Source of the DNA: Bacteroidaceae bacterium
GTDB taxonomy: Bacteria > Bacteroidota > Bacteroidia > Bacteroidales > Bacteroidaceae
Reading direction: 5' to 3'
Length of the DNA stretch: 64,000 nucleotides
Assembly (NCBI GenBank): GCA_017622815.1
Contig: JAGAQH010000042.1
Span: 62,001 to 126,000 of the forward strand
In this document: one piece after another, positions 21,657 to 40,602 of the stretch
Layout of the letters: every line of letters begins with the position of its first letter
Position numbering within the stretch: position 1 is the stretch's first letter
Program-made: the position numbers and the translations under genes
Notes under the pieces: model-generated
Databases searched by the model: none
What the model was told of the DNA's origin: nothing
The model's input: only the letters and a program-made list of their open reading frames with translations

Positions 21657-22517
21657 TTATTTAGTATGTTTATATCTGCAATTCTTATATAGACTTCTTA
21701 ATGGTCTGTAAATTTTATTTTCGAATATAAGTAGAACTTTATATACAGTGTATAGTATATTGTAACTTCCTGTATTCAAGAACATACTGGAACTTGCAAG
21801 CAAATATTCCTTTCTTAGCTTTTTGTCCTTTATTTCGGAAACGATGTTCGGATGCATATATTTATATAGGTACTCAATTCCTTCGGCTCTGCCTTTGGGG
21901 TTACCGTCAAGACTGGAAACTCCATCAAGGTAGAAAAGCGACAATGGAATTGGAATGTGTCTGTATGTTACGTTGTCAATAATCATTGCATCGTAGAAGA
22001 ACATCCAGTCTCCGGCAACTTTAGATTCCTCATTATATCTGAACTTCTTGATAAGTGATGTCTTGATAAGTGTTGAAGGGTGAGGGAATGGGTTACGCAT
22101 TGATATGTACAATTTTGTGGGCTTGTTCTTTGGTGCCGATCTGAAATTGCATATTTTGTCGTTGTTGGTAAATAGGTCACAGCATATTATATCCTCTTCC
22201 AAATCATCGCTTTCCAGCACGTTTGCCAGTGAGTCTGGGGTAAGAAGTTTGTCACCTGAGTTCAAAAAAAGGCAATAGTCTCCGCTTGCCGCATCAACAC
22301 CTTTGTTCATTGCATTGTAGATACCTTTGTCCTTCTCGCTAATCCAATACGATATCATTTTGGCATAATTCTTTATAATCTCAACGCTATTGTCGGTAGA
22401 AGCGCCGTCAATAATGATATACTCAATGTTGCCATATGACTGTTCAACTACGCTTTTGATAGTTCTTTCAAGTCCTGCAGCATTATTCCGGTTTATGGTT
22501 ATGATTGATATTTTCAT
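21657..22517 (-). CDS. GT2 family glycosyltransferase
   Basis: This 286-residue GT-A transferase shows MKISIITINRNNAAGLERTI, IEYIIIDGASTDNSVEII, and the donor-binding segment KDKGIYNAMNKGVDAASGDY with LFLNSGDKLL. This subgroup (KGIYxAMNKG) is common in colanic-acid-like and capsule loci. The start overlaps the flippase stop by 4 bases. It adds an unknown sugar to the lipid-linked intermediate on the cytoplasmic face. Confidence 0.9.
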   Translation of the reverse strand: MKISIITINRNNAAGLERTIKSVVEQSYGNIEYIIIDGASTDNSVEIIKNYAKMISYWISEKDKGIYNAMNKGVDAASGDYCLFLNSGDKLLTPDSLANVLESDDLEEDIICCDLFTNNDKICNFRSAPKNKPTKLYISMRNPFPHPSTLIKTSLIKKFRYNEESKVAGDWMFFYDAMIIDNVTYRHIPIPLSLFYLDGVSSLDGNPKGRAEGIEYLYKYMHPNIVSEIKDKKLRKEYLLASSSMFLNTGSYNILYTVYKVLLIFENKIYRPLRSLYKNCRYKHTK

Positions 22518-24040
22518 CTTTTTATATTCTTAGAACCCCTATTAATTACCAGTTTTATTTGCTGTCTGTTATCATTGTTGAGAATAATGAAATAGCAATA
22601 TGTCATAAAAACTATAAAGTATACGACTGTTATAACCAGCACTTTTAGTATTGAAGACTCCATTCCCATTATAATAGGGATTATGGGAATAATGGATACT
22701 AAACCTGCAAATATTACGCCCATGCAGTTCCAGGTAATCTTTATGATATTCAGTGACGGTATCATGGATCTGATAAGGACCAACTCAATAATAATCATTA
22801 GTACTGCTGAACATAAAAGGACATAGTATGCATATTCAGGACTTAAGGTAAAGGATCTGAACAATATATATATAACAGGAAGGTTTAGCAGGGCTATTGT
22901 TCCTGCCATAAAACTCAACGTCTTTACTTTACCGGTTGCATGAATGGATATTGTCAGGATGTTATTTATGACGCCGAAGATGTTCATTATCAAAAGAATT
23001 CTGCAGAATATTGGCGCATATTGAGGCACATCGCCCAACCATAGTGTCATAATGTAGTCAATCTCTATACACAATGGAACTGAAATAATCATAAGCATAA
23101 GGACTGAAAACTTAATTGCATTGCTTATTAGGTTTTCCATCCTTGTATATTCCTTGACTGCATATGACTTGATTATCTGTGGACGGAATGCCTGAAGAAT
23201 GTTTCCTGAAAACCCGGAAATGATACCTTGTACCATTGTTGCAATTCCGCTTGCTGCGTTTAGCACAACTCCGAAGAACATGTTCAATATGAAATTTGTA
23301 CCCTGCTGTCTTGAAGTCACACTCATATTGCCATATAAGTCCCACAAAGAGAAAGCGAACATTGGTTTGATTATTGCAGGCCTGTATACAAACCGTATAT
23401 GTGTTTCATCGAAATGTTTTACACAGTATATTCTGTATATAAATGCTATAAGTGCGCTTACACAAAGTACCAGTGTAGCATATAGAATAAGTTTGTCAAA
23501 GTTGCCGATAAGGAGTATATATACAATAACAAGCTTGAGAGTGACATTTAGGAGCTCAACATATGCATATATGTCCATCTTTTCGTGAGCGATTATTGTT
23601 GCATTGTATGGTACTTGTGTTATTGTAATTATCATACTTGAGACGGAAAGTTGGTAAACAATTTCTGCAGCAAACATCCTTTCTTCTGGTATTACAAGTT
23701 TGTTATGAAGGAACCATAAACCAATTGTTTCAGCCAATATTAATATCAGAAGGGCTATTCCAATATGTATTATAAGCGCGCTGTTGAAAGTGTCCCTCAA
23801 ATTTTCTTTGTTCTCTTTTGCCATTTCATGGGTAAGAAAACGTGCAGTTGCTCCACTCATCGCGGTATTGAGAAAAGTAAACATCGCTACAACAGAGCCG
23901 ACAAGACCGTATATGCCGTAGTTCTCTTCGCCAAGTACTTGCAATACTACGCGTGACGTATATAAAGATATTGCAATTGACAACAACATCCTTATATACA
24001 AGAAAAGTGCATTTTTGGCAATACGCTTATTATTATTCAT
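22514..24040 (-). CDS. Polysaccharide flippase (Wzx-like, MOP superfamily)
   Basis: This 508-residue protein has about 14 predicted membrane helices. The N-terminus, with YTSRVVLQVLGEENYGIYGL followed by TAMSGATARFLTHEMAKE, is the Bacteroidales Wzx/PST pattern. It would move undecaprenyl-linked repeat units across the inner membrane for Wzy polymerisation. It follows the ATP-grasp gene by 10 bases and overlaps the GT2 gene by 4. Its AT-rich composition agrees with horizontal exchange of the repeat-unit genes. Confidence 0.9.
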   Translation of the reverse strand: MNNNKRIAKNALFLYIRMLLSIAISLYTSRVVLQVLGEENYGIYGLVGSVVAMFTFLNTAMSGATARFLTHEMAKENKENLRDTFNSALIIHIGIALLILILAETIGLWFLHNKLVIPEERMFAAEIVYQLSVSSMIITITQVPYNATIIAHEKMDIYAYVELLNVTLKLVIVYILLIGNFDKLILYATLVLCVSALIAFIYRIYCVKHFDETHIRFVYRPAIIKPMFAFSLWDLYGNMSVTSRQQGTNFILNMFFGVVLNAASGIATMVQGIISGFSGNILQAFRPQIIKSYAVKEYTRMENLISNAIKFSVLMLMIISVPLCIEIDYIMTLWLGDVPQYAPIFCRILLIMNIFGVINNILTISIHATGKVKTLSFMAGTIALLNLPVIYILFRSFTLSPEYAYYVLLCSAVLMIIIELVLIRSMIPSLNIIKITWNCMGVIFAGLVSIIPIIPIIMGMESSILKVLVITVVYFIVFMTYCYFIILNNDNRQQIKLVINRGSKNIKR

Positions 24041-25412: not shown

Positions 25413-25894
25413 TTATATAATCTGTAAGGATTTTAGGAGTCCTCTGTGTAAAACAATATTTTCTTCCATGTTATAAGTCATATTTGTATGCAAATACTTA
25501 AAGAAAAGCCTTCCCTCATGATACCTTTCTTCGTTACCTATAACACTGAAATTAAACAGTACATCAAGAACATATGTACTGTTTCTTTGCTGAACTATTC
25601 CTAAATCAATTAATTTTTTATATTCTTTAGAGAATTCTTGTCCTGTAAAGATTTGCTTTCTAATCTTTGAAATGATTTGAAAAATTGACTCTATCTCTGG
25701 AAGTAAAGGAAATATCTCATCTATTATTTCTCCTTTTAAATAATTAGAAAAAGCACGGTCTACCAACTTGATTGTCCTTGCTGATATTAATGTTTCTTTT
25801 CTTTCTATGGCATATGCACAGCACGTTTGAATGTATTTGATAAAATCACGTGGTCTCATGTGGGTACTTCTTGCTATGAAATCAAACGAAGAAA
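25413..25894 (-). pseudogene. Sll1717-family P-loop ATPase, C-terminal part (frameshifted)
   Basis: The frame holding MRPRDFIKYIQTCCAYAIER (ATG 25859) reads backwards without a stop through SSFDFIARSTH to the A6 tract at 25895-25900, where the upstream ORF ends its shared sequence. RPRD followed by a helical C-terminal domain is the expected continuation of an Sll1717-type ATPase. Adding one A to the tract would join both parts into one protein of about 485 residues. As the sequence stands this portion lacks its own ATPase and is probably not made, unless it is translated from the internal ATG. Confidence 0.75.
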
Positions 25895-26860
25895 TTTTTT
25901 AGACATATTTCTTCCATAACGAACCTTACCAGGAGCAAAAATTCTATCCCAGGCATTATTAAAAGTCAACACAGAATTTCCATTGTTAACATCGCATGAT
26001 ATTCGATAAGCAATCATTTTTTTTATCTTATCCTCAGTCCATTCAAGCTCTATTTTGAAATCACTCCATTTATTCTTATCTGCATCATTAAGTAATGCAT
26101 AAATATCATCTCTTAGAAATACTATTGGCATTATTCTAAGATTTGTTGTTGAAAACGTTGCCTTAACGTCTTGCACTGCCTTAAATAGAGACGTTAGTAG
26201 ACTTTTATATAATTTTACATCTGTGTCATTGTCGCGAAGTTCTCTATAGTCCTCATCTAATTCGTCAAAAACTATGTAATATTTAGATTCATCACAATGA
26301 TTTGCTATTATATCTTCCAATATATTTACTTTATCTAACCAAGATATTGAAGCCTGAGGATTAGTTATTGTTCTATCAGCCTTTAAGTTTCCGCCATTTC
26401 CTAACACATTAATTCCAAATTCGGCAGAAGTCCATTCTGAGACTCTTCTCGCTAATTGCTTAATATTGTTCTTCGGATAAATCTTTAATAGTTCATTACG
26501 GACATCAGTATCTATTGCCTCATTCTCAGACATAAGTTTACAAACTGATGAATATATCAAATATTTCCATAATGTAATATATTGATTAGGTGCAGTATAT
26601 CTGTCATTATATAAAGAATACAACTCATTAAAAGGATAATTTTTAAAATTTAGTCTTTCTGAGAAGCAATCATAATCTTTTTTATTAACAATATGACTAC
26701 ATATTGCTGTTTTTCCTGTACCCTTCCTACCTATAACAAAACATTTGGTATTATCTAATATTGCACTAACCTCTGTATAATGGTAGAAATACCGAGAGGC
26801 TTCTAATTTCGCTTCTAATTTCCAATTTTGAGAAATAGTGTGTAATAAACTGTTTTCCAT
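25874..26860 (-). pseudogene. Sll1717-family P-loop ATPase, N-terminal part (frameshifted)
   Basis: This 328-residue piece has a P-loop (FVIGRKGTGKTAICSHIV, about residues 41-58), an aspartate-rich Walker B-like segment (YYIVFDELDEDYREL) and a sensor-like IMPIVFLRDDIYALL. This fits the P-loop ATPases of the Sll1717 family, whose function is not established. It stops 15 bases before the ATG of the downstream piece, immediately after KKFLRLIS, which is out-of-frame sequence following a run of six A on the coding strand. It is AT-rich and isolated between the Wzy remnant and the folded repeats. It could be phase-variable, a recent mutant or a sequencing error. Confidence 0.75.
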
Positions 26861-29952: not shown

Positions 29953-30015
29953 AGGCTTAACAAACTGAGAGAAGACTGACGCTGAATAGCAGTCTGGAAC
30001 TAATTACCTGAAGTG

Positions 30016-30043
30016 TAGCGGACACGGCGTGCCGTGTCCCTAC
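30016..30043. repeat. REP-like palindrome GGACACGGC/GCCGTGTCC
   Basis: Nine-bp perfect arms (30020-30028, 30031-30039) with a GT loop are extended by GTAG/CTAC across a C-C mismatch. Palindromes of the type GGGACACGGC occur dispersed in many bacteria. Confidence 0.65.
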
Positions 30044-30064
30044 CTGATAAACACAATTATTCTG

Positions 30065-30469
30065 ATGAGAAAGATTACACTTATTATTGTACATTGCTCC
30101 GCAAATCGTGAAGGGAGCAAACTGAGGATGGCTGACATTGATCGCTATCATCGTTCCTTAGGTTGGAAGGGGTGCGGATATCACTATGTGATTCCTACGG
30201 ACGGAACAATAGAAGCAGGACGAGCGGAGGAAAGGATTGGCGCTCACTGCAGGAACCATAACCGTCATTCCATAGGAGTATGCTATATAGGTGGACTCGC
30301 TGCAGACGGAGTTACTCCCAAGGATACCAGAACGAGGGCACAGAAACTGGCATTAAAGAGATTGCTGGAAGACCTGCATCAACGTTATCCAAAGGCCTTG
30401 ATTCTCGGACATTGTGACTTGGAACCTATGAAACCGGATTGTCCCGGATTTAAGGTCTCGGGAGGTTAA
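30065..30469 (+). CDS. N-acetylmuramoyl-L-alanine amidase (amidase_2, phage-lysin-like)
   Basis: This 134-residue zinc amidase has ITLIIVHCSANREGSKLRMA, GWKGCGYHYVIPTDGTIEAG, GAHCRNHNRHSIGVCYIGGL and ILGHCDLEPMKPDCPGF. The zinc ligands are the His of IVHC, the His of GHCD and a Cys or Asp in the last motif. It cleaves the bond between MurNAc and L-Ala in peptidoglycan. ATG 30065 (MRKITL) is chosen over an upstream in-frame ATG at 30029, because family members begin at the first beta-strand. It has no signal peptide. It is short for the family at the C-terminus (ends KVSGG), which is common in this HU-associated group. Confidence 0.85.
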   Translation: MRKITLIIVHCSANREGSKLRMADIDRYHRSLGWKGCGYHYVIPTDGTIEAGRAEERIGAHCRNHNRHSIGVCYIGGLAADGVTPKDTRTRAQKLALKRLLEDLHQRYPKALILGHCDLEPMKPDCPGFKVSGG

Positions 30470-30570
30470 TACTGATAACAGAAGGGAGAGGCAATGTGTG
30501 ATGAACGGTTAGAGATATTTGCAAGATTATCAAGCAATGCTATTGATTAGTGAGGCATCAGGAAGATTAC

Positions 30571-30602
30571 GAGGTTGGGGGAACGTGATGCCCCCCAGCC
30601 TC
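30571..30602. terminator. Bidirectional terminator between amidase and wecC
   Basis: GAGGTTGGGGG pairs with CCCCCCAGCCTC across a 9-10 base loop, with one G-U pair. It sits between the convergent amidase and wecC genes. Confidence 0.6.
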
Positions 30603-30662
30603 ATAAATGTGATTTGGGCCTATAACTAGTTCTCTATGCGCACTTCGTTCAAATTTATACCC

Positions 30663-31868
30663 CTACTTCTTATATATTCCGCAGAAGTCCAGGATTACCT
30701 TGTTCTCATCGTAGGGCAGAGTCTTGAACTGGTCGTGGGCAGTGAGCATAACAACGATGTCAGCCTTATCGTATGCTTCCTGATATGGTGTGAGTTTGAA
30801 GGTATTGTGCTCTTCTACATTCGGTTCAACAATAAGAATCTCTGCATTATTGCACATCTGCATTACCTTGCCTACAATAGTCTTGGAGGGAGACTCGCGA
30901 AGGTCGTCAATATTGGGTTTAAATGCCAAGCCCATCATGGCAACAACGGGCTTGCGGCTATGCTTAAGTTCGTATTCCAACATAGTGCTCTTAACCTTTT
31001 CTGCACACCAGAAACTCTTGTAGTTGTTGATGTTGCGGGCTGTGGCGATAATCTTGCTCTCAGCAGGATAGTCGGCTGTGATGAAATAGGGGTCAACTGC
31101 AATGCAACGTCCACCTACGCCACAGCCTGGTTGCAGGATGTTTACACGGGGATGCTTGTTGGCAAGGTTGATGAGTTCCCATACGTTGATACCTGCCTTA
31201 TCACAGATAAGTGAAAGCTCGTTGGCAAACGCAATCTGTACGTCACGGCTTGAGTTCTCGGTAAGTTTACACATCTCAGCAGTACGGCTGTTGGTCTTGT
31301 GCAACTGTCCCTGAACGAACTGTGAATAGAACTCTATAGCCTTGTCTGTAGATTCGGGATTCATACCACCGATAACACGATCGTTGTGTACAAGTTCATA
31401 TATAACGTTGCCAGGCAATACACGTTCGGGGCAGTATGCAATGTATATCTTGTCTTTAAGTTCGGGACGTTCTGTGAAGATGATGTTTGCCATCATCTCT
31501 GTTGTACCTACAGGTGATGTTGACTCAATGACATAGAGGTCGCCTTCCTTCAAGAGGGGAAGGACTGCACGGGTAGCAGCCTCTACGTAAGAAACGTCAG
31601 GTTCGTGGTCACCCTTGAAGGGTGTGGGGACTACCATGAAATAGGCATCACACTCTTGTGGAGTGGTATATGCCTTGAACTTACCTGCAGCGATAACTTC
31701 CTGCAGCATTTCCTCCATTCCGGGTTCAATGATGTGCAGGATTCCCTGATTTGTTTTCTCTACTACCTTGGCATTAATGTCTACACCTATAACATCAACT
31801 CCGTGCTTTGCCGCGATAATTGCTGTGGGAAGGCCTATGTAGCCCAAACCCATAAAACATGCTTTCAT
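30663..31868 (-). CDS. wecC: UDP-N-acetyl-D-mannosamine dehydrogenase
   Basis: This 401-residue nucleotide-sugar dehydrogenase oxidises UDP-ManNAc to UDP-ManNAcA with NAD. Seen are the NAD motif FMGLGYIGLPTAIIAAKHGV, VPTPFKGDHEPDVSYVEAAT, the catalytic Cys in QPGCGVGGRCIAVDPYFITA (about residue 258), and GLAFKPNIDDLRESPS. Lys and Arg of the active site are in place. The length is as expected for WecC. It is 19 bases after wecB. It is distinct from the TviB-type enzyme at 19.4 kb, so the locus can make two different aminouronic acids. Confidence 0.93.
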   Translation of the reverse strand: MKACFMGLGYIGLPTAIIAAKHGVDVIGVDINAKVVEKTNQGILHIIEPGMEEMLQEVIAAGKFKAYTTPQECDAYFMVVPTPFKGDHEPDVSYVEAATRAVLPLLKEGDLYVIESTSPVGTTEMMANIIFTERPELKDKIYIAYCPERVLPGNVIYELVHNDRVIGGMNPESTDKAIEFYSQFVQGQLHKTNSRTAEMCKLTENSSRDVQIAFANELSLICDKAGINVWELINLANKHPRVNILQPGCGVGGRCIAVDPYFITADYPAESKIIATARNINNYKSFWCAEKVKSTMLEYELKHSRKPVVAMMGLAFKPNIDDLRESPSKTIVGKVMQMCNNAEILIVEPNVEEHNTFKLTPYQEAYDKADIVVMLTAHDQFKTLPYDENKVILDFCGIYKK

Positions 31869-31887
31869 ATTATAATATTTTAATTGA

Positions 31888-33039
31888 TTATTTCAGTGCT
31901 TCTGCAATTCTTCCACAAGCCAAGCCATCTCCATAGGGATTAACTGCCTTGCTCATTGTATCGTAATGGGCTTGGTCATCAAGCAACAAGGACACTTCGT
32001 TGACAATCTTGTCATAGTCTGTACCTACAAGTTTTACTGTTCCTGCCTCCAATGCCTCGGGACGCTCGGTGGTATCTCGCATAACCAAGACTGGTTTGCC
32101 AAGACCTGGTGCTTCCTCCTGTATGCCACCGCTGTCGGTGAGCACTATGTTGCTCTTTTCCATGAGGTAAACGAATGAGAGGTATTCAAGAGGTTCTATG
32201 AAGAACATATTGCCCAGATTACTCAAATCTTCTCCAAAGACTTCATGAATAGGTTTGCGTACATTAGGATTGAGGTGCATGGGATATACAAAATCAACAT
32301 CAGGGTATTTCTGTGTGAGATCACGTATTGCAGTGCACATGTTTATGAAGCCGTCACCAAAGTTCTCGCGACGGTGACCTGTGATAAGGACAAGCTTCTT
32401 TCCATCTGCAAGGCGCGTGATGTCGTAGCCAGCTTGTGCAAGAAGGTTCTGCAATTCTTCATTAAGAACCTTGTCTTCCTTAATCTTGTTTACCACCCAA
32501 TAAAGTGCGTCAATTACAGTATTGCCTGTAACTGTGATGCATTTCTCTGCCACAGCCTCACGCAAAAGGTTGGATTTGCTCAATGGGGTTGGTGCAAAGT
32601 TATATGTTGCTATACGGCCTGTTATCTGACGGTTCATTTCCTCTGGCCAAGGACTGTAGATATTGTGGGTACGCAGACCTGCCTCAACATGGCCTACAGG
32701 TATCTGCTGATAAAAAGCGGCAAGGGCTGCAGCCGTGCTCGTTGTTGTATCTCCATGAACAAGTACCACATCGGGCTGTGATTCCTTCAGTACATCACGC
32801 ATGCCAGTAAGCACTCGGGCTGTAACATCATATAAGTCCTGACCTTGCTTCATGATATTCAGATCATAATCCGGTATTATCCCAAACAACTGCAGTACCT
32901 GGTCAAGCATCTGGCGATGCTGGCCTGTTACGCACACTATGGTTTTAAATGTCTCTGGATACTTCTGGAACTCCTTTACAAGAGGGGCCATCTTGATGGC
33001 CTCAGGACGAGTTCCGAAAACGAGCATTACATTTTTCAT
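31888..33039 (-). CDS. wecB: UDP-N-acetylglucosamine 2-epimerase (non-hydrolysing)
   Basis: This 383-residue GT-B-like epimerase converts UDP-GlcNAc to UDP-ManNAc. Hallmarks are FGTRPEAIKMAPLVKEF, VHGDTTTSTAAALAAFY, HVEAGLRTHNIYSPWPEEMN, ITGHRRENFGDGF and LTDSGGIQEEAPGLGKPVLV followed by RDTTERPEA. All expected substrate-binding residues appear intact. It is upstream of wecC in the same transcript. The 692-base gap to the next upstream gene (upxY) is mostly the folded repeat at 33188-33665. Confidence 0.95.
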   Translation of the reverse strand: MKNVMLVFGTRPEAIKMAPLVKEFQKYPETFKTIVCVTGQHRQMLDQVLQLFGIIPDYDLNIMKQGQDLYDVTARVLTGMRDVLKESQPDVVLVHGDTTTSTAAALAAFYQQIPVGHVEAGLRTHNIYSPWPEEMNRQITGRIATYNFAPTPLSKSNLLREAVAEKCITVTGNTVIDALYWVVNKIKEDKVLNEELQNLLAQAGYDITRLADGKKLVLITGHRRENFGDGFINMCTAIRDLTQKYPDVDFVYPMHLNPNVRKPIHEVFGEDLSNLGNMFFIEPLEYLSFVYLMEKSNIVLTDSGGIQEEAPGLGKPVLVMRDTTERPEALEAGTVKLVGTDYDKIVNEVSLLLDDQAHYDTMSKAVNPYGDGLACGRIAEALK

Positions 33040-33187
33040 AAACTTTTAATATTTGCTATTTGTTTAGACATTTAACGAATGAGAAACGGAAAGGAAATGC
33101 TTCGGGTTTCACGAGTTAATTTCTATCAACACGATGACACTGATTTCGGTCTAAGGTCACGTGGTATCTCGTTGAATGTTTAAATAC

Positions 33188-33665
33188 ATCAACATGATTA
33201 CACTGATTGTACGGAATTATTATTATCGCACACAGAGGGCACGGAAAGCACAGATTTTCACTGTTTCATTTTGATTCCCACGGAACGATCTGATTCCTGT
33301 GTATGCCCTTATATAGAAAACTACAAATTCATTTGCATTTGTCTATAGAATTGCATACTGACGACAAATGTCTCGGCAACTATGTTGCTGGAATCTAATC
33401 AGAAAAAATCGTTTAAAGTCACTTCTAAATTCTTGTTGATTATCTTATCTTCAACGCGATGACACTGATTTTACGGAATTATTTTTATCGCACACAGAAG
33501 GCACGGAAAGCACAGAATAACACTGATATATTATAGATTCCTATGGCTGACATTCAATGGTATCACTCAAACGAGTTTGGATGATCCTATTGGCTATCAT
33601 CCTTGAAGACAGGTCTTCGCAACTGTGTTGCTGGAATCTAGTTGGGAATACAGAAAGACGTTGAT
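33188..33665 (+). repeat. 478-bp folded repeat, cassette order Y then X
   Basis: This has the same leader, linker and tail as the copy at 27223-27700 and exactly the same length, but cassette Y (core about 33289-33398) comes first and X (core 33534-33640) second. Core X folds into consecutive hairpins ACTC/GAGT, GGATGAT/ATCATCC, GAAGAC/GTCTTC and GCAAC/GTTGC, closed by TAGATTCC/GGAATCTA. In core Y the left end is reduced to TGATTCC. No open reading frame is present. Confidence 0.8.
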
Positions 33666-33731
33666 AGTTTATCGTTTAACGAGGATAGAGTGTAAGGAGG
33701 GTATAGATGGTAAGGGGCTGGGAGTTATGAA

Positions 33732-34292
33732 CTAAGCGTTAAGGGGTTCCAACTGGTGTTTGGGAATGTATGTGGTGGCATAGGAGATGATGCCGGGGAT
33801 GGTGACAACGACACGAGTTTGGGTGTGGATGCGTGCAACACGGCCTATGACTCCTTTGAAAGGGCCGTCGGTGATGCGGACGGGAGCACCGGGACGGTAG
33901 TGTATCTCGGCATCGGTGACAGAATAGGATTGGGGCATGCCCACATTGACAAGGCGAATGAGGTTGTCCATGTCTTCCTCGGGAACGGTGATGGGGGTAT
34001 CTGGAGCGGTGAGTGAGGAGCGGTGAGAGGTGAGAGAAAGATGCTGGATGACTTCTGACTGGTGCACAAATTGGGTGGTGGTGTTCTTTATGATGTTATG
34101 GATGTTGTCGTAGGTGCCGTACACAAAGAGCAGGTCCGGACGTGATGGAACCTGCTGCCACACCTTGTCCTGTCCTATGGTCATAGCACGGTATTCCGTG
34201 GGGACGAACACGCGCAGACCTTTACTCTGCATGAGTTCGCCAAGTTCTGTGGCATTGGCAGATGGGGTGCGGAGAATGTACCAGCGGTGCAT
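33732..34292 (-). CDS. UpxY-family transcription antiterminator (second)
   Basis: This 186-residue NusG-like protein has an NGN domain starting RWYILRTPSANATELGELMQ, then KGLRVFVPTEYRAM and PDLLFVYGTYDNI. The C-terminal KOW domain has PGAPVRITDGPFKGVIGRVA and VVVTIPGIISYATTYIP. UpxY proteins bind polymerase at capsule promoters and suppress premature termination in the 5' leader of their own locus. It is the second of two adjacent upxY-like genes; a 248-base leader with hairpins and three direct repeats separates them. Its target is probably the downstream wecBC/capsule genes. Confidence 0.88.
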   Translation of the reverse strand: MHRWYILRTPSANATELGELMQSKGLRVFVPTEYRAMTIGQDKVWQQVPSRPDLLFVYGTYDNIHNIIKNTTTQFVHQSEVIQHLSLTSHRSSLTAPDTPITVPEEDMDNLIRLVNVGMPQSYSVTDAEIHYRPGAPVRITDGPFKGVIGRVARIHTQTRVVVTIPGIISYATTYIPKHQLEPLNA

Positions 34293-34342
34293 GTTGTAAA
34301 AGGAACAGGATTGGGGTTATAAGTATTTGGTATACATCCTTT

Positions 34343-34440
34343 GCTTTAGCCTACGTTAAACTGTTCATAGACCACTTCGCTTTACCCAACGTTAAATAGT
34401 TTACAGCCCCCCTCCGCTTCGCTTTACCCAACGTTAAACT
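34343..34440. repeat. Three 20-bp direct repeats between the two upxY genes
   Basis: GCTTTAGCCTACGTTAAACT (34343-34362), GCTTTACCCAACGTTAAATA (34379-34398) and GCTTTACCCAACGTTAAACT (34421-34440) repeat with centre spacings of 36 and 42 bases. Confidence 0.75.
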
Positions 34441-34453
34441 GGAGAGTTTAACC

Positions 34454-34530
34454 CTCAGAGGACACAGAATGACATTTAGTCATTCCTCTAAAGAGTCTCT
34501 TCGCCCTCTGACTCAGAGGGACGAAGTAGA
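34454..34530 (-). promoter_or_regulatory. Structured leader of the second upxY gene
   Basis: Two hairpins, GAATGAC/GTCATTC (around 34466-34486) and CCCTCTG/CAGAGGG (34505-34521), lie just after the first upxY stop. Leader terminators of this sort are what UpxY proteins overcome in studied capsule loci. Confidence 0.45.
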
Positions 34531-34540
34531 TGTGGAGGAG

Positions 34541-35110
34541 TTATCTGTCGAGTACCTGGATATATCCGTCATTAAGATTAGCAATAATCACGGCGGCAAT
34601 ACCTTCTGCAAGGACAACGACCTTTTTCCGTTTTCCTTTTTCTATCCTGACAAACGTGCCTTCAATGCCATCAAAAGATCCGCAGACAATTCTGACAGGT
34701 GTGCCCTCCTGCAGGTTGATTTCGTCCGGTGCAAGATAAATAAGTTTCTCATTGAATGTGTTGCACGCTGCAATGAATTGCTGCATCTGATATTCCGGAA
34801 CGGTGATGGGGACCCTTCTTACACCTGCAGGGCGTGTATGGTATTGCAGGTACTCCACACCCGACTTCAAGGACTGAATACGCTGACGCGTAGTGTGAAC
34901 AAATATCAGATTCTTTACTGCCGGAACCAGTTGCCTGGTTTTCTTTCCATCGCGCACTTTGGCAATTTCGTAACGCATGGGCACGAAACATTCCACATTG
35001 TTCTTTTCAAGAAAAGCCTTTGCCTTCAGTTCCCTGCCAAACGTAGCACTCATAGCAAACCAGAGCATGTCTGCATCAGTATAGTTAGACAGGTTTCCTA
35101 CATTTGTCAT
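34541..35110 (-). CDS. UpxY-family transcription antiterminator (first, next to invertible promoter)
   Basis: This 189-residue NusG-like protein has MLWFAMSATFGRELKAKAFL, VECFVPMRYEIAKVRDGKK and VPAVKNLIFVHTTRQRIQSL (NGN), then EGTPVRIVCGSFDGIEGTFV and KKVVVLAEGIAAVIIANLND (KOW). The longest frame starts with GTG at 35116; the ATG at 35110 is preferred. It is the first gene downstream (leftward) of the inverted-repeat-bounded promoter segment, the usual position of upxY in phase-variable Bacteroidales capsules. In the orientation shown no consensus promoter faces it, so it is predicted to be off. Confidence 0.88.
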   Translation of the reverse strand: MTNVGNLSNYTDADMLWFAMSATFGRELKAKAFLEKNNVECFVPMRYEIAKVRDGKKTRQLVPAVKNLIFVHTTRQRIQSLKSGVEYLQYHTRPAGVRRVPITVPEYQMQQFIAACNTFNEKLIYLAPDEINLQEGTPVRIVCGSFDGIEGTFVRIEKGKRKKVVVLAEGIAAVIIANLNDGYIQVLDR

Positions 35111-35262
35111 TAACACACGTCTTTCATGATGGTATATTCTTCTGGCTCCCCAAGGCCTTGCGTTTATTGCTCAGCCTTAGGCAATTAGGCGCTATCACCG
35201 ATGAGTAATCCTCCATCGCTAATGTCCTTGCAAACCACATAACAGCCATTCCCTGATACAGT

Positions 35263-35281
35263 AGGTCTTCTTTTAGAAGAT
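35263..35281 (+). repeat. Left inverted repeat of the invertible promoter
   Basis: AGGTCTTCTTTTAGAAGAT, 19 bases, is the exact reverse complement of 35463-35481. It contains an internal dyad, TCTTCT/AGAAGA around TTT, like a tyrosine-recombinase crossover site. Confidence 0.88.
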
Positions 35282-35462
35282 TGACCGGCATTAGTCGTAT
35301 GTTGAAATAAAGAACTTTAGTATTCATGAAAACAACATATCTGCTTAAACAAGGCCAAATCCATACACTCGAACTTCACGTCTGGATAATCTTTTTAAAG
35401 GAAAAAGCCATGCAGACACAACATTATTTAATATTTTTTCTTACCTTTGCTTGTGATTCCAC
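35282..35462. promoter_or_regulatory. 181-bp invertible promoter segment, OFF orientation
   Basis: This gene-free AT-rich segment lies between perfect 19-bp inverted repeats. Its only TAnnTTTG element (35442-35449) points right, away from the upxY gene at 35110. After inversion the element would map to 35295-35302 on the minus strand, giving a leader of about 180 bases before upxY. A recombinase gene lies 47 bases beyond the right repeat. Confidence 0.82.
35442..35449 (+). promoter_or_regulatory. -7 element of the invertible promoter
   Basis: TACCTTTG is preceded by an A/T-rich spacer. No strong -33 TTG is seen, as is common in the phylum. Confidence 0.65.
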
Positions 35463-35481
35463 ATCTTCTAAAAGAAGACCT
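35463..35481 (-). repeat. Right inverted repeat of the invertible promoter
   Basis: ATCTTCTAAAAGAAGACCT is the reverse complement of 35263-35281. On the leftward transcript it also supplies the U-rich tail after the recombinase terminator hairpin. Confidence 0.88.
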
Positions 35482-35503
35482 GTGCCGGTATCTGCACAGG
35501 TCT
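35478..35503. terminator. Hairpin between recombinase and invertible segment
   Basis: GACCTGTGC pairs with GCACAGGTC (9 bp, loop of 8). Leftward it is followed by TTCTTTT, so it should end the recombinase transcript. Rightward it stands directly in the path of the OFF-oriented promoter. Confidence 0.75.
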
Positions 35504-35527
35504 AATGATGTTGTTGTCAGGTTGTGT

Positions 35528-36475
35528 CTATAACAGTCTTAGGATTTTTCTGTTGGCTTTGTCTATCACTTCGGTTTTCAAAGAGTCAAGGTATATTTGT
35601 GTTGTCTTTTCCGAGTCATGTCCCATGCCTTCGCTTATTACAGAAAGAGGGATGCCTTCGTTGCGTGCAATACTTGCCCATGAATGTCGCGCACAATACA
35701 TGGTTAGCGGATGCTGCAATCCTATTTCTGTGCCTATGATCTTCAGACTTCGGTTGACACTACACATGGCATTCAGGTATTGCCTCCTGTGATTGCCATC
35801 CAAATCCTTTATGATGGAGAACAGGTAGGGAGATGATGGCGGCGCAAGATACTTTTGCAGAATGCTGTGCATGCAGGGTTCCCAAAAGATTGTCAGTTGC
35901 TGGTTTGTCTTTTTCCTCCGGTAGTACAGTATGCCGTTTCTTATACTTTTCTTCTTGAGGAAGGCTATATCCACAAACGACATTCCCCGGGTATAGAAAC
36001 TGAAAAGAAACATGTCTCTGGCAAATTCCTTTGATGGTGAACCACTGAGGTCCATTGACTTTATTTTCCTGATACTCTTCAGGCTCAGGGCACGCTTGCC
36101 GGTCTTTTCTATAGATGTGTTTACGCGCTTGAACGGATGCCGGTCTACGATAAGTTCTTCGTCCACCGCCCTGTTGTAGACGGCTCTGAGGTGCTTCATG
36201 TAGAACGATATGGTGTTGGGCGACAAGTTACTGTTTCTCAGATAACATTCGTACGACTCCATCTGTTCGGAACATATATCCCGAAGTGTGATGTCGGCAT
36301 TCTTTCTGTACCTGCGAAAACTGTTAAGTGTACTGGAGTAGGTTTCGCTTGTTCTGACACGGCCCTGCTCCTGGTACTGTGCAATGGTCTGTTCCATGTA
36401 GCGGAACAGAGTGTTGTTTGGTTTCCTTACTTTTCCAATGGTTGTCGGTACGGATTTTGTTTTTACTGATAGCAT
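35528..36475 (-). CDS. Tyrosine site-specific recombinase (Tsr/invertase type)
   Basis: This 315-residue phage-integrase-family recombinase has a SAM-like core-binding domain (LFRYMEQTIAQYQEQGRVRT to about residue 110) and a catalytic domain. The catalytic residues are visible: Arg in FYTRGMSFVDI, Lys in YYRRKKTNQ, Tyr-x-x-Arg in TMYCARHSWAS (Tyr in place of the first His, usual in Bacteroidetes), His in EGMGHDSEKT and the nucleophile Tyr in TQIYLDSL. ATG 36475 is chosen because the longer frame runs through the promoter, a leader hairpin and the neighbour's terminator. Its position beside the 19-bp inverted repeats makes it the likely inverter of the capsule promoter. Confidence 0.9.
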   Translation of the reverse strand: MLSVKTKSVPTTIGKVRKPNNTLFRYMEQTIAQYQEQGRVRTSETYSSTLNSFRRYRKNADITLRDICSEQMESYECYLRNSNLSPNTISFYMKHLRAVYNRAVDEELIVDRHPFKRVNTSIEKTGKRALSLKSIRKIKSMDLSGSPSKEFARDMFLFSFYTRGMSFVDIAFLKKKSIRNGILYYRRKKTNQQLTIFWEPCMHSILQKYLAPPSSPYLFSIIKDLDGNHRRQYLNAMCSVNRSLKIIGTEIGLQHPLTMYCARHSWASIARNEGIPLSVISEGMGHDSEKTTQIYLDSLKTEVIDKANRKILRLL

Positions 36476-36502
36476 AGTGCAAGTTTTGGTTAATAATGTA
36501 AG

Positions 36503-36549
36503 AAGGTCCCGACAATTCAGGACCTTCATACAAATTAAGCCAAATATAT
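36503..36549 (-). promoter_or_regulatory. Recombinase promoter and leader hairpin
   Basis: The minus strand reads TATATTTG at 36542-36549 (TAnnTTTG). The transcript would then form GAAGGTCC/GGACCTTC (36503-36528) followed by UUACAUUAUU before the ATG at 36475, resembling an attenuator. Confidence 0.5.
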
Positions 36550-36560
36550 TTATAACAGAA

Positions 36561-36600
36561 CTCAGCGAAGTGTAACTTTTGGCATACACTTCGCTGAGTC
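36561..36600 (-). terminator. Terminator of the secreted GEVED-protein gene
   Basis: This is a 15-bp perfect stem, ACTCAGCGAAGTGTA with TACACTTCGCTGAGT, with a 10-base loop. It lies 51 bases after the stop at 36651 and is followed leftward by TCTGTTATAAAT. Confidence 0.8.
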
Positions 36601-36650
36601 GCATTTAGGGGCACTCCCCTATCAAGTCCGTTGTGACGATGCAGTCACGC

Positions 36651-39062
36651 TTACTTACGTACTACCTTCTTCTTGCCATTGACGATGAACACGCCTTCCT
36701 TGGGCAGTGCATGAAGTTTCTGGCCCTGCATGTTGTAGATGCCCTGCTGGATAGTGGCGGCGCCCCCGGCAGGGATGTCCTGGATGGAGGTTACCAGGTC
36801 GGTAACCTCCACGTTGGGATTCTCTATGATGTACATTACAGAACCGTGGTCGTTCCATGTCCAGTTGCGAACGGCACATGAAGCCTCGTTGGTAACGATA
36901 CAGGCAAAATAGGTAGAATTCTCTGAATATCCGCCACCGGCATGGAAACTGAAAGTACCGTCGCCATTGTCACGAATCTTGTCCAGCGCTGTCTTGTTAA
37001 CGGTGAAGACATAGTCGCGACCGTTACGTGTTACGTAGGACTGATTTGCGGGCTGGTAAAGGTAGTATTCATCCCCTTCCTTCAGGATTTGCCAGATGAC
37101 GGTGGAATCAAAAGGGCTGACTTCCTCCTTATATATATTTACAATGGCCTCGTTGGAGGGAAACTTGTTGTAACTGGAGTTGGTTACGCCACGAAGGCTG
37201 ACATAGGTGTTGGTTATGGTAGGGTTCCATGCCAGGTAGCCCTCGCCGCTCTTTGCCTTGATGTGGTAGGCCATGTCGTTGCGCAGTTCGGAAAGGCTGC
37301 TTATGTTCCTGTATGCCTGAATGGCCTTGTAGGTAACGGTGAGCACCTTGGAGGCAGCATCCAGAGAAGCGGAACAGATGTATCCTTCGATCTGAATGGG
37401 GGTAACGTCGTCGGCAGAGAAATACTGTGATGCGTCTATGATGTCCTCGTGTCCGTACTCCTTGCCAAGGAAGTTAACACCGCCCTGCCCCTCGGGAGCG
37501 CCTACCACATTGACGGTATAGTGCTGAACCTGCTGCATGTCGCCCTTGATGCTCACGTATCCGCCGCGGATGTACTCGGCAGGGATGGTGTAGGTGCTGT
37601 CCAGGGCAGAGATGGCGGTTACGGGTACGTCCACAACTATCCAGTTGGGGTTGCCGTTCTCGTCCAGTTGGTCCACTGCATTCACGTTGTAGCCGTACTT
37701 CAGTTGGAAGCCGTTCTGCACAAAGCCCTTTTCGGGAATGACCTTCACCTTGAGTGCCTTGCCGTATTCGGCCTGATAGGCCTGCAAGGGAGAAAGGTCC
37801 TCGGCCAGGACGATATCGCCGTTCAACTGTGAAGCGCTTACGCTGACCATATCGCCATGCACGTCCAGAGTGAGATCAACGTAGCCACCGCCGTTGGAGA
37901 TGAGGCTCATAGCACCTGCAGGGTTGAGGTCGTCCCAGTCCACCTTGTAGCGCATGCGGTAGAAACCGTTGGCTGTAGAGGCAGGAACGGTAAATGCGGG
38001 CACACCGCTCTGTATGGTGTTTCCGTTGGCCGAGGTGCTGCCGTCGCTCTTGCGCCATGTGCCGTTAACCTGTGCGGCACTGTAGGAAACAATGTCGCTG
38101 CCCGTGGCAGGTGTGCCGTTGTCGTTCACCTCGTAGGAGAAGACACCGTCGTTGCCCCAGTCGGCATAGACGTATCCGCTCATCCATGAACCGCTGTACT
38201 TGAAGGTGGGCTGTACCTGTTCGCCTGCCTTGGCAGAGAACACATTGGTACACGTCATATCGGTGTAGATGAGTTTGTCGGCACCCATGGCGGTCTGCTC
38301 TGTAGCGCCAACCTTGAAACCAACACCGTTCAGACGGCGGTCATTGCGTGTGGGCTTTGCATCAGGGGCGAAGCTAAGTGCGTACTTGTCTGTGCTGAAA
38401 CGCTTCTCTGGATTGTTGTCCACCACGATTTCGTCGAAGTATGCCACCCAGTCGCTCTGGTCGGCATGGGGCGAACGGAGGTCGGGGATGATGACCAGAG
38501 AATGGATATCGATACCGCTATTCTCATTCTCTTCCTTGGAATATGAGAAGCCCTTGAAACTTACGACAACGTCCTGCCAGCCTTCCTTGGCCTTGACGGG
38601 AGCATTGGTCCAGGCCCAGAACTGCTCGTCCTCGCCTGTCTGCCATTCCCAACTCTTTTCCAGACGCTTGCCCAGACCTATCACCATCATACGCGAGTCG
38701 GCGGGCTTGTCCTTCAGGTATGCCATCACATGGATGTACTGCAACTGCTTGGTCATGCGGATGGGTTCCTTCAGGTCTATCCTCACACCATAGGCATTGC
38801 CTGCGAAGCGGCTTCTCTGGAATGCCACAACCTTGGCAGAGGAGTTGGGTGCTGCACCCAGTACCTCGTCAACATTTGTATCGGGGTTGTCGGCCACACC
38901 TGCATTGCCTGCCAGCGTGCCAACACGGAAAGGACTCTTTTCCCATTGGTCGTAAACGCCAATCTTTGCATAGTCCTCGGCATCAAAACTGATTGTTGTC
39001 TGTGCCTTGGCAGCCAAGCCTGCTATCAGCAAGGCTGCGGGGAGTATATATTTCTTTATCAT
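36651..39062 (-). CDS. Large secreted multidomain protein (GEVED-like, Prevotella-type C-terminal tail)
   Basis: This 803-residue protein has a signal peptide (cleavage near LAAKAQ). The N-terminal third resembles a carbohydrate-binding beta-sandwich (GVRIDLKEPIRMTKQLQYIH and later FDEIVVDNNPEKRF). A middle segment fits a GEVED-like domain (SGYVYADWGNDGVFSYEVND, YRMRYKVDWDDLNPAG). The last 30 residues, QGIYNMQGQKLHALPKEGVF ending in NGKKKVVRK, are the tail seen on many Prevotella secreted proteins. No catalytic motif was recognised. It is transcribed after the alpha-L-fucosidase gene (10-base gap), so it probably helps bind or present fucosylated glycans. Confidence 0.7.
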   Translation of the reverse strand: MIKKYILPAALLIAGLAAKAQTTISFDAEDYAKIGVYDQWEKSPFRVGTLAGNAGVADNPDTNVDEVLGAAPNSSAKVVAFQRSRFAGNAYGVRIDLKEPIRMTKQLQYIHVMAYLKDKPADSRMMVIGLGKRLEKSWEWQTGEDEQFWAWTNAPVKAKEGWQDVVVSFKGFSYSKEENENSGIDIHSLVIIPDLRSPHADQSDWVAYFDEIVVDNNPEKRFSTDKYALSFAPDAKPTRNDRRLNGVGFKVGATEQTAMGADKLIYTDMTCTNVFSAKAGEQVQPTFKYSGSWMSGYVYADWGNDGVFSYEVNDNGTPATGSDIVSYSAAQVNGTWRKSDGSTSANGNTIQSGVPAFTVPASTANGFYRMRYKVDWDDLNPAGAMSLISNGGGYVDLTLDVHGDMVSVSASQLNGDIVLAEDLSPLQAYQAEYGKALKVKVIPEKGFVQNGFQLKYGYNVNAVDQLDENGNPNWIVVDVPVTAISALDSTYTIPAEYIRGGYVSIKGDMQQVQHYTVNVVGAPEGQGGVNFLGKEYGHEDIIDASQYFSADDVTPIQIEGYICSASLDAASKVLTVTYKAIQAYRNISSLSELRNDMAYHIKAKSGEGYLAWNPTITNTYVSLRGVTNSSYNKFPSNEAIVNIYKEEVSPFDSTVIWQILKEGDEYYLYQPANQSYVTRNGRDYVFTVNKTALDKIRDNGDGTFSFHAGGGYSENSTYFACIVTNEASCAVRNWTWNDHGSVMYIIENPNVEVTDLVTSIQDIPAGGAATIQQGIYNMQGQKLHALPKEGVFIVNGKKKVVRK

Positions 39063-39072
39063 AGGTGTGTAA

Positions 39073-40602
39073 TCAATAAACGCTCAGGTTAGACAATAAG
39101 GGGCATGCTCTGCTGTCGAGGATGTTGATGCGGAGTTTCTTTGCCTTGTAACCCTCGCCATAACTCTCGGACGTACTGCCGTTCAGGGGAATGATTCTCT
39201 TGTAGCCCACGGTGGTAGTCTCCAGTGTGGGGCAGAGTTCGCGCCAAGTGCTGCCATCAGCACTGTACTCTATGGTGAAGTCCTTGATGCGCTGGCCCAG
39301 ACGGATGGGTTCCTGCATGAGCAGATAGCGCAGGGTCTGAGGCTCGTCCCATGACAGGGTGATGCTTGCCTGAAGGCTGCCGTCGTTGGTGCCCCAATAG
39401 GTGTCCTTATCGCCGTCGTTCAGGTTAGTGGCCTCGTACTTGCCGCCTGTGCGTGTCTCGCTCACCTCTATGGTAGCGGTCTTGGCCAGGTCCTTGGCAG
39501 CGGTGCTCTCGTCCTGTCCGTGAACGGGAACTGCCAGGCGCTCGTGAAGCAACTGGCCAAGTTTCTTCAGTTCATTCACTGTATTTGTGGGCAACACGCC
39601 ATACTGGTCGGGAGGGCAGTTCAGGATGAGTGTGGCATTGCGGCCTACGGTCTCCAGGTACATCTGGAACAGGCGTGCGGCACTCTTCATGGTCTCGCCC
39701 TGGTGCCAGAACCAACCGTTGTTTGTAGCCTTGGCATCGCTCTCGCCGGGATTCCAGAACCAGCCGTTGATGTCGCCCTCTTCGCGTACAACGGTTTCGG
39801 ACAGGTAGTCGGTCATTGCCCAGTTGGTATTGCCGGCATAACCGGACTCATTACCTATCCAACGTGCTTCGCCGCCCACACCCCACATAACGCAGTTGGG
39901 AGCAATACGGTGAACACGTGCACGGAGGTTGGGGATGTCATAGTAGATGGCGGCATCCACCTGGCGTGTACCGCCCTCGCCGCCATAGTAGCCGTCGCCG
40001 CCATTGGCACCGTCGAACCACATCTCAAACTGGTCGCTACCGTACTCGGCCAGTTCCTCGCACTGCTTCAGGAATACCTCGGTTACGTATGTATCCTTGC
40101 CATAGTGCGCAGAGTTGCGGTCCCAGGGAGAGATGTAGAAACCGTATTTCATGCCATGCTTCTGACTTGCCTTGGCATAGAGTTCGGGAATGTTTGCCGT
40201 ACGTCCGTATTCACTGCCTGCACGGGTGATGTTGTGAGTGGTAGTGGCAGTGGGCCACAGGCAGAAACCGTCGTGATGCTTCACTACGGCAATGCCACCT
40301 GTCATACCGGCAGCCTTCACTGAAGTAATCCATTGCTCTGGGTTGGGCATGGCCTTGGGGGCATAGATATTCTCTGCCTCGTCGCCATTGCCCCATTCCT
40401 TGCCGGTGAATGTGTTCATTCCGTAATGGAAGAATGCATAGAACTCGGTTTCGTTCCAAAGAATCAGTCGTTCATGGGGAACGGGATGACATGGCAACGG
40501 AGCGTTGTCCGGATTGGAAAGCTCCTGCGATACCAGTTTAAAGTCTTGGGCAAATCCCGTTATGGGGATAGCGAGTCCAAGAAGAAGGGTCTTAATCTTC
40601 AT
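39073..40602 (-). CDS. Alpha-L-fucosidase (GH29) with C-terminal F5/8-type domain
   Basis: This 509-residue secreted glycoside hydrolase has a signal peptide ending near GFAQ. The GH29 TIM barrel has ETEFYAFFHYGMNTFTGKEW, GGIAVVKHHDGFCLWPTATT, YGFYISPWDRNSAHYG and the nucleophile aspartate in FEMWFDGANGG. The C-terminal 150 residues (KYEATNLNDGDKDTYWGTND, LRYLLMQEPIRLGQRIKDFT) form a discoidin-like carbohydrate-binding module. It should remove L-fucose from host or dietary glycans in the periplasm or outside the cell. It is first in a two-gene leftward operon, and no susCD pair is nearby. Confidence 0.9.
   Translation of the reverse strand: MKIKTLLLGLAIPITGFAQDFKLVSQELSNPDNAPLPCHPVPHERLILWNETEFYAFFHYGMNTFTGKEWGNGDEAENIYAPKAMPNPEQWITSVKAAGMTGGIAVVKHHDGFCLWPTATTTHNITRAGSEYGRTANIPELYAKASQKHGMKYGFYISPWDRNSAHYGKDTYVTEVFLKQCEELAEYGSDQFEMWFDGANGGDGYYGGEGGTRQVDAAIYYDIPNLRARVHRIAPNCVMWGVGGEARWIGNESGYAGNTNWAMTDYLSETVVREEGDINGWFWNPGESDAKATNNGWFWHQGETMKSAARLFQMYLETVGRNATLILNCPPDQYGVLPTNTVNELKKLGQLLHERLAVPVHGQDESTAAKDLAKTATIEVSETRTGGKYEATNLNDGDKDTYWGTNDGSLQASITLSWDEPQTLRYLLMQEPIRLGQRIKDFTIEYSADGSTWRELCPTLETTTVGYKRIIPLNGSTSESYGEGYKAKKLRINILDSRACPLLSNLSVY

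Follow-up and report, generated by a model that had tools for sequence, protein, structure and literature searches.

A predicted invertible promoter with a local tyrosine recombinase and a conserved leader hairpin precedes upxY in a polysaccharide locus of an uncultured Bacteroidaceae lineage

Invertible promoters of Bacteroidales polysaccharide loci, served by a local recombinase, are a type of switch already known from Bacteroides. The excerpted text of PMC13114119 describes invertible promoters before upxY in gut Bacteroidaceae, with recombinase genes frequently upstream, and inversion detected by PCR in Phocaeicola vulgatus. The polysaccharide locus of P. vulgatus PvCL10, as presented in that excerpt, resembles the one studied here: inverted repeats bound a promoter ahead of upxY, a gene for a site-specific recombinase lies upstream, and the polysaccharide operon is long. 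The neighbouring recombinase of PvCL10 is given as defective, whereas ours is intact, and our upxY is followed by a second UpxY-family gene (PMC13114119). In B. fragilis, according to excerpts of PMC12632263, one global DNA invertase serves the capsule promoters PSA-PSH, which likewise are invertible, precede upxY and come with UpxY antitermination. In contrast to that arrangement, our locus has a local tyrosine recombinase, a single site pair in the assembly and no visible upxZ. Both sources agree with the preliminary description of this DNA, made from the sequence alone, which had noted that phase-variable capsule promoters next to upxY are known from Bacteroides (PMC13114119 and PMC12632263, each in excerpt). 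In the leaders of its own operons, UpxY keeps transcription from terminating early (PMC7819879, in excerpt). LoaP, in the excerpted text of PMC12691694, is a specialised NusG protein that works through a leader RNA hairpin; the hairpin and the bacteria differ from ours, and binding is shown for LoaP whereas here the element is a candidate from sequence. The same excerpt cites Saba 2024 (Nat Commun 15:10862) for contact of UpxY with upstream DNA. The switch reported here is set apart by its local intact recombinase, by a second UpxY-family gene without visible upxZ, and by its leader signature.

We analysed a stretch of 64,000 nucleotides from a Bacteroidaceae bacterium (GCA_017622815.1, contig JAGAQH010000042.1), hereafter the window. 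We are confident that we are looking at a switch for the phase variation of a capsule or exopolysaccharide, in which the recombinase would flip a 181-bp segment, its promoter turning upxY and the operon on when pointing left and off when pointing right, with UpxY loading at a leader hairpin. In the course of events that we infer, the tyrosine recombinase would recombine two 19-bp sites and the segment would invert. In one orientation the TACCTTTG promoter would fire left, and transcription would cross a leader with a hairpin pause site before reaching upxY; the UpxY protein would then board RNA polymerase at the pause site and carry it through the long operon. In the sequenced orientation it would fire right, against the recombinase gene at its 3' end, leaving upxY without a recognisable promoter. 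The features of the switch are as follows.

35263-35281, plus strand: left inverted repeat, the recombination site, AGGTCTTCTTTTAGAAGAT
35282-35462: predicted invertible segment, 181 bp, delimited by the repeat pair here and in relatives
35442-35449, plus strand: promoter -7 element TACCTTTG, pointing right, which is OFF for upxY; after inversion at 35295-35302, minus strand
35463-35481, minus strand: right inverted repeat, reverse complement of the left repeat without mismatch
35476-35503, minus strand: terminator-like hairpin 3' of the recombinase gene, its 3' arm being the outer end of the right repeat
35528-36604, minus strand: tyrosine recombinase, probable invertase (PF13102, PF00589), probable start 36475
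36541-36548, minus strand: TATATTTG, probable promoter element of the recombinase

The two repeats are complementary at 19 of 19 positions, 181 nt apart, and each carries the inner dyad TCTTCT-TTT-AGAAGA, just as first described. They form the longest perfect inverted repeat at a spacing of up to 600 bp in the window. The maximum in 60 first-order Markov simulations with the same neighbour frequencies was 16, which rules out a chance origin. Searching the 2.57-Mb assembly for the 19-bp repeat with up to three mismatches returned both known sites and two lone matches with three mismatches, and a reversed-pattern control in the same search returned one match. The site is a single pair in the assembly, ruling out a genome-wide repeat family. 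Mpi, the global invertase of B. fragilis, is a serine recombinase; an Mpi-type global system is ruled out here, since the neighbour is a tyrosine recombinase and the site a single pair. Among 139 genomes of the genus we found no second copy of the segment; apart from the window's own sequence there were just two short matches, one of 24 and one of 31 nt. A search of a plasmid collection gave no match, and three single matches of the 19-mer in viral contigs were read as chance.

The segment holds a single TAnnTTTG element, on the plus strand at 35442, and none on the minus strand, with about 0.16 expected in 181 bp on both strands. By eye, TTTG is absent from the usual -33 place before TACCTTTG, and the -33 element is weak at this locus; the A/T-rich stretch before TACCTTTG looks like the promoters of relatives. 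As assembled, the promoter aims right, at the 3' end of the recombinase gene. The preliminary description had read the single rightward promoter in this way and had correctly placed it at 35295-35302, facing upxY, after inversion. It had also called the sequenced clone OFF: the orientation stands, the clone does not. The source (42 contigs, 88% complete, 2.57 Mb) is probably a metagenome assembly, like most named relatives, and "OFF" is therefore the orientation of the assembled majority. A promoter directly to the left of 35263, which the same description had named as an observation against its reading, was not found: toward upxY the leader contains no TAnnTTTG, even with one mismatch allowed, and its minus strand no sigma-70-type match.

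As the preliminary description had stated, a tyrosine recombinase gene adjoins the right repeat. Its end lies 46 bp from the repeat, toward which it is transcribed, and its product carries the SAM-like and catalytic domains of tyrosine recombinases (PF13102 and PF00589). Its matches in the PDB at E ≤0.001 are XerC-like, IntI4 and XerA recombinases only. Among 39 aligned relatives, R206 is conserved in 38 and K232, R306, H329 and Y338 in all 39; we take these five to be the catalytic residues. The gene is probably its own transcription unit, with TATATTTG at 36548-36541, a likely start behind it at 36475, and the terminator-like hairpin at its end. Because the gene is transcribed toward the segment, this hairpin would shield upxY from recombinase transcription in either orientation. 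Terminator-like hairpins number three in 1.7 kb, against 1.5 ± 1.4 in shuffles, a number that alone is not above chance. Another hairpin, AAGGTCC/GGACCTT (36500-36530, minus strand), lies between the probable promoter and the start of the recombinase and is possibly a control point of that gene.

The switch might instead be a frozen remnant, in which repeats and recombinase are intact while no inversion takes place in the lineage, the locus being either unexpressed or transcribed by read-through that starts at the recombinase promoter. A single orientation is known for the locus, from the assembly and 139 genomes of the genus, and the recombinase promoter does lie upstream in the same direction. 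However, the repeats are still perfect, the recombinase open reading frame and its conserved residues are intact, and a terminator-like hairpin separates the recombinase from the segment. We consider a frozen remnant very unlikely.

One scan of genome contigs supplied 60 related loci. Searches of the genus (139 genomes) and of the family (399 genomes) added further loci, those of the best matches only. The compared set comprises 20 distinct loci whose recombinase is at least 60% identical and followed by at least 300 nt, excluding the locus's own copies; L008 and L018 were dropped for their short flanks. An inverted-repeat pair lies downstream of the recombinase in 17 of the 20, within 700 nt in 16 and further out in L016. 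In a control stretch of the same size upstream, a pair was found in four of 20. The related recombinases of L011, L013 and L014 show no repeat pair by the same search. A upxY relative is found downstream in 12 of the 20 loci. Where upxY follows and the orientation is clear, the promoter points toward upxY (ON) in L010, L012, L015 and L095, the last with a recombinase below 60% identity, and away from it (OFF) in L005, L009, L020 and L076. These are different genomes, hence they are indirect evidence for inversion. L006, L007 and L016, each with several promoter elements, show no clear orientation, and L055 and L109 have repeats and upxY without TAnnTTTG.

A sister cassette, with a recombinase about 53% identical, TCTTAGACAGAGGGA sites and a 145-bp segment, exists in both orientations. 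The segment of L032 is inverted relative to that of L026 (135 of 145 positions identical to the reverse complement, against 38 of 145 in the same sense), while their flanks are identical at 60 of 60 and 195 of 200 positions. The other eight sister cassettes compared have the orientation of L026. Together, the recombinase family with its matching sites, the two orientations in relatives and the inversion of the sister cassette favour the invertible-promoter reading put forward in the preliminary description. It had also suggested searching other strains for both orientations: the segment itself has no second copy in the 139 genomes of the genus, and both orientations occur among the relatives and in the sister cassette.

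Several relatives have unusual architectures. L020 (6001-12459, Parabacteroides bouchesdurhonensis) carries a tandem array of three cassettes. All three have the same site pair, a upxY relative and a promoter element that points away from it; cassettes 2 and 3 retain only the 3' end of the recombinase gene. In L076, about 349-579 nt past the recombinase, the recombination cores are doubled in tandem in each repeat arm. L026, L028-L033, L035, L043 and L056 share a near-identical recombinase and 145-bp invertible cassette; they belong to several genera of Bacteroidales, among which a mobile element may have spread it.

The arms of the sites fall into classes by recombinase clade: TCTTCT, TCTCCT, CTCTT and TCTTAG. 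Within the class of the window, the three central bases vary from locus to locus (TTT, TTG, CAA, CGG, AAA, TGT) and are the same at both sites of any one locus, an agreement that the searches themselves favour. On a tree of 39 recombinases the four arm classes need three changes, which is the minimum, compared to a shuffled mean of 20.7, a difference that near-copies help. The tree takes 39 of 99 recombinases, 59 being unclassed by the patterns and one a second copy of the window's own recombinase; L006 and L078 were classed by hand. In tyrosine recombinases the protein binds the arms, and the centre of a site need only match that of its partner. The observed pattern fits this general understanding. 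The sequences indicate joint evolution of recombinase and site, which should allow the site to be guessed when a new recombinase is found.

These relatives also bear on the possibility that the recombinase serves a mobile element as integrase, the repeats being attachment sites or a terminator pair, with no invertible promoter. The domains are indeed general tyrosine-integrase ones, and the sister cassette, near-identical in ten records from several genera, may be mobile. Yet the sites are inverted and not direct, they bound a promoter and no genes, and the layout of recombinase, repeats and upxY recurs in relatives. We give such an integrase hardly any credence and return to the phase-variation switch.

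Past the left repeat lie the following features.

35132-35185, minus strand: leader element, an 8-bp hairpin then GGAGCCAGAAGAATA, candidate UpxY-loading pause site (52.7 bits, covariance model R1)
34541-35116, minus strand: upxY, the first gene past the switch (NF033644, 141.5 bits, cut-off 100; PF02357)
33732-34292, minus strand: second UpxY-family gene, in the usual place of upxZ (NF033644, 108.6 bits, cut-off 100)
11302-33039, minus strand: polysaccharide genes, among others wecB and genes for UDP-sugar dehydrogenases, glycosyltransferases, a Wzy_C protein and WecG/TagA

Reading leftward, the order is upxY, the second UpxY-family gene, wecB and a UDP-sugar dehydrogenase gene, then glycosyltransferases, the Wzy_C protein and WecG/TagA. 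The assignment of upxY and the polysaccharide genes to the left of the switch in the preliminary description is thus confirmed by the NF033644 match and by the gene content. The wzx gene that it mentioned is likely the 508-aa open reading frame at 22514-24040, which gave no Pfam or NCBIfam match. A upxZ as second gene, frequent in such loci and not required, is not visible: no UpxZ match was found among 28 proteins scanned against Pfam, and 33040-33731 contains no minus-strand open reading frame of at least 100 aa. The gap between the two UpxY-family genes contains a 25-nt direct repeat in three copies (34336-34438). Within the polysaccharide operon lies a Sll1717-family P-loop ATPase (25413-26860, minus strand), split into two open reading frames that correspond to model positions 13-300 and 315-454; it has one weak match to an anti-phage family, far under cut-off. 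Close to the far end of the locus is an open reading frame for a HepT-like ribonuclease (PF01934; 8137-8523, minus strand), of a family often found in toxin-antitoxin pairs.

The leader between the left repeat and upxY is 146 nt long and contains an element that the preliminary description lacked, a covarying hairpin with GGAGCC at the end. A hairpin followed by GGAGCCAARRGNAYG is common to the leaders of relatives. We defined a subfamily as UpxY proteins scoring at least 140 bits against the UpxY of the window, a cut-off picked after the data were seen; within it, the motif is present in 31 of 33 leaders, the window included, and L184 and L185 fall under the motif cut-off. Of 31 leaders from distant UpxY relatives one passes (L095), an unconvincing match that runs into the gene. 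Shuffled leaders passed in 21 of 1280 cases; the motif alone is therefore weaker evidence than motif and hairpin together.

With the pairing register fixed, the excess of pairs is weak (186 of 248, compared to a shuffled mean of 167.7 and maximum of 184), because the length of the loop varies. With the loop left free, the 31 elements together form 253 pairs; shuffling the 3' arms 500 times never gave more than 186. In the 22 elements that share a common register, 94.3% of the cells are paired. Both partners have changed in six of the eight pairs, and covariation scores 0.569 versus 0.283 when shuffled; sliding the partner lowers every measure. The nine elements left out of this alignment (L170, L173, L174, L177-L181 and L183) have the 5' arm elsewhere or a short helix, and L182 is out of register by one. 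RNAalifold recovers the same helix unaided.

Model R1, built from these 22 elements with the element of our locus among them, gives a single match in the window, at 35185-35132 on the minus strand. In the family it matches 29 places in 27 of 349 genomes, 16 of the 29 being sequences used to build it, and a upxY relative follows 26. Ten of the remaining 13 matches precede a upxY relative, seven already among our leaders and three fresh (G356, G168, G309). Three matches are without upxY. L202 precedes a gene that reads, by translation and without family search, as a sugar nucleotidyltransferase fused to an aminotransferase, and its genome, G015, has a UpxY relative on another contig. Similarly judged by translation, L208 lies 180 nt before a gene reading as a WecA-type membrane transferase. 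L205, with no evident polysaccharide gene downstream, is probably a false match. Rfam at E ≤10 gave eight matches in 30000-40000, all far under their gathering scores and none on the leader element. On contig 2 of G374 (L164, L188, L215), two divergent UpxY genes each have their own leader element.

From the end of the helix to a conserved pyrimidine-purine step the distance is 13 nt, close to the 11-12 nt between hairpin and pause in hairpin-stabilised pauses. The motif would sit where non-template DNA is exposed, and the element is probably the UpxY-loading pause site of this UpxY subfamily. Saba and colleagues reportedly described in 2024 how UpxY recognises paused polymerase, aided by nascent hairpins. 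As proposed for our element, UpxY recruitment in Bacteroides reportedly involves a signal in the leader to which a specialised NusG protein responds, together with a pause and a hairpin in the emerging RNA.

Hairpin and GGAGCC could also be an attenuator or a signal for the translation of upxY, and not the place where UpxY loads. The element does lie near the upxY start in most of the 33 leaders. Against such a role, no U-run follows the hairpin, the distance from element to start codon varies, and the element goes with a single UpxY subfamily, besides which it stands before two polysaccharide-type genes that have no upxY next to them. We regard this role as somewhat unlikely. As for the loading site, we tentatively propose that the hairpin and GGAGCCAARRGNAYG form a recruitment code of the UpxY subfamily, in which a hairpin-stabilised pause would expose a motif read by the cognate UpxY, and that UpxY made from one flipping promoter could act in trans on further polysaccharide operons, an idea we find plausible while leaning slightly against it. 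Action in trans is possible because the element precedes polysaccharide-type genes that have no adjacent upxY. In the literature searched, Saba 2024 (Nat Commun 15:10862) aside, we recognised no paper that describes the motif, and we make no claim of novelty in print.

With this locus, a known type of phase-variation switch is now seen in an uncultured lineage, most of whose closest named relatives are metagenome assemblies from animal guts. The leader element offers a concrete and testable candidate for the means by which a UpxY recognises the operon it belongs to. It also hints that a single switch might act on operons at other places in the genome.
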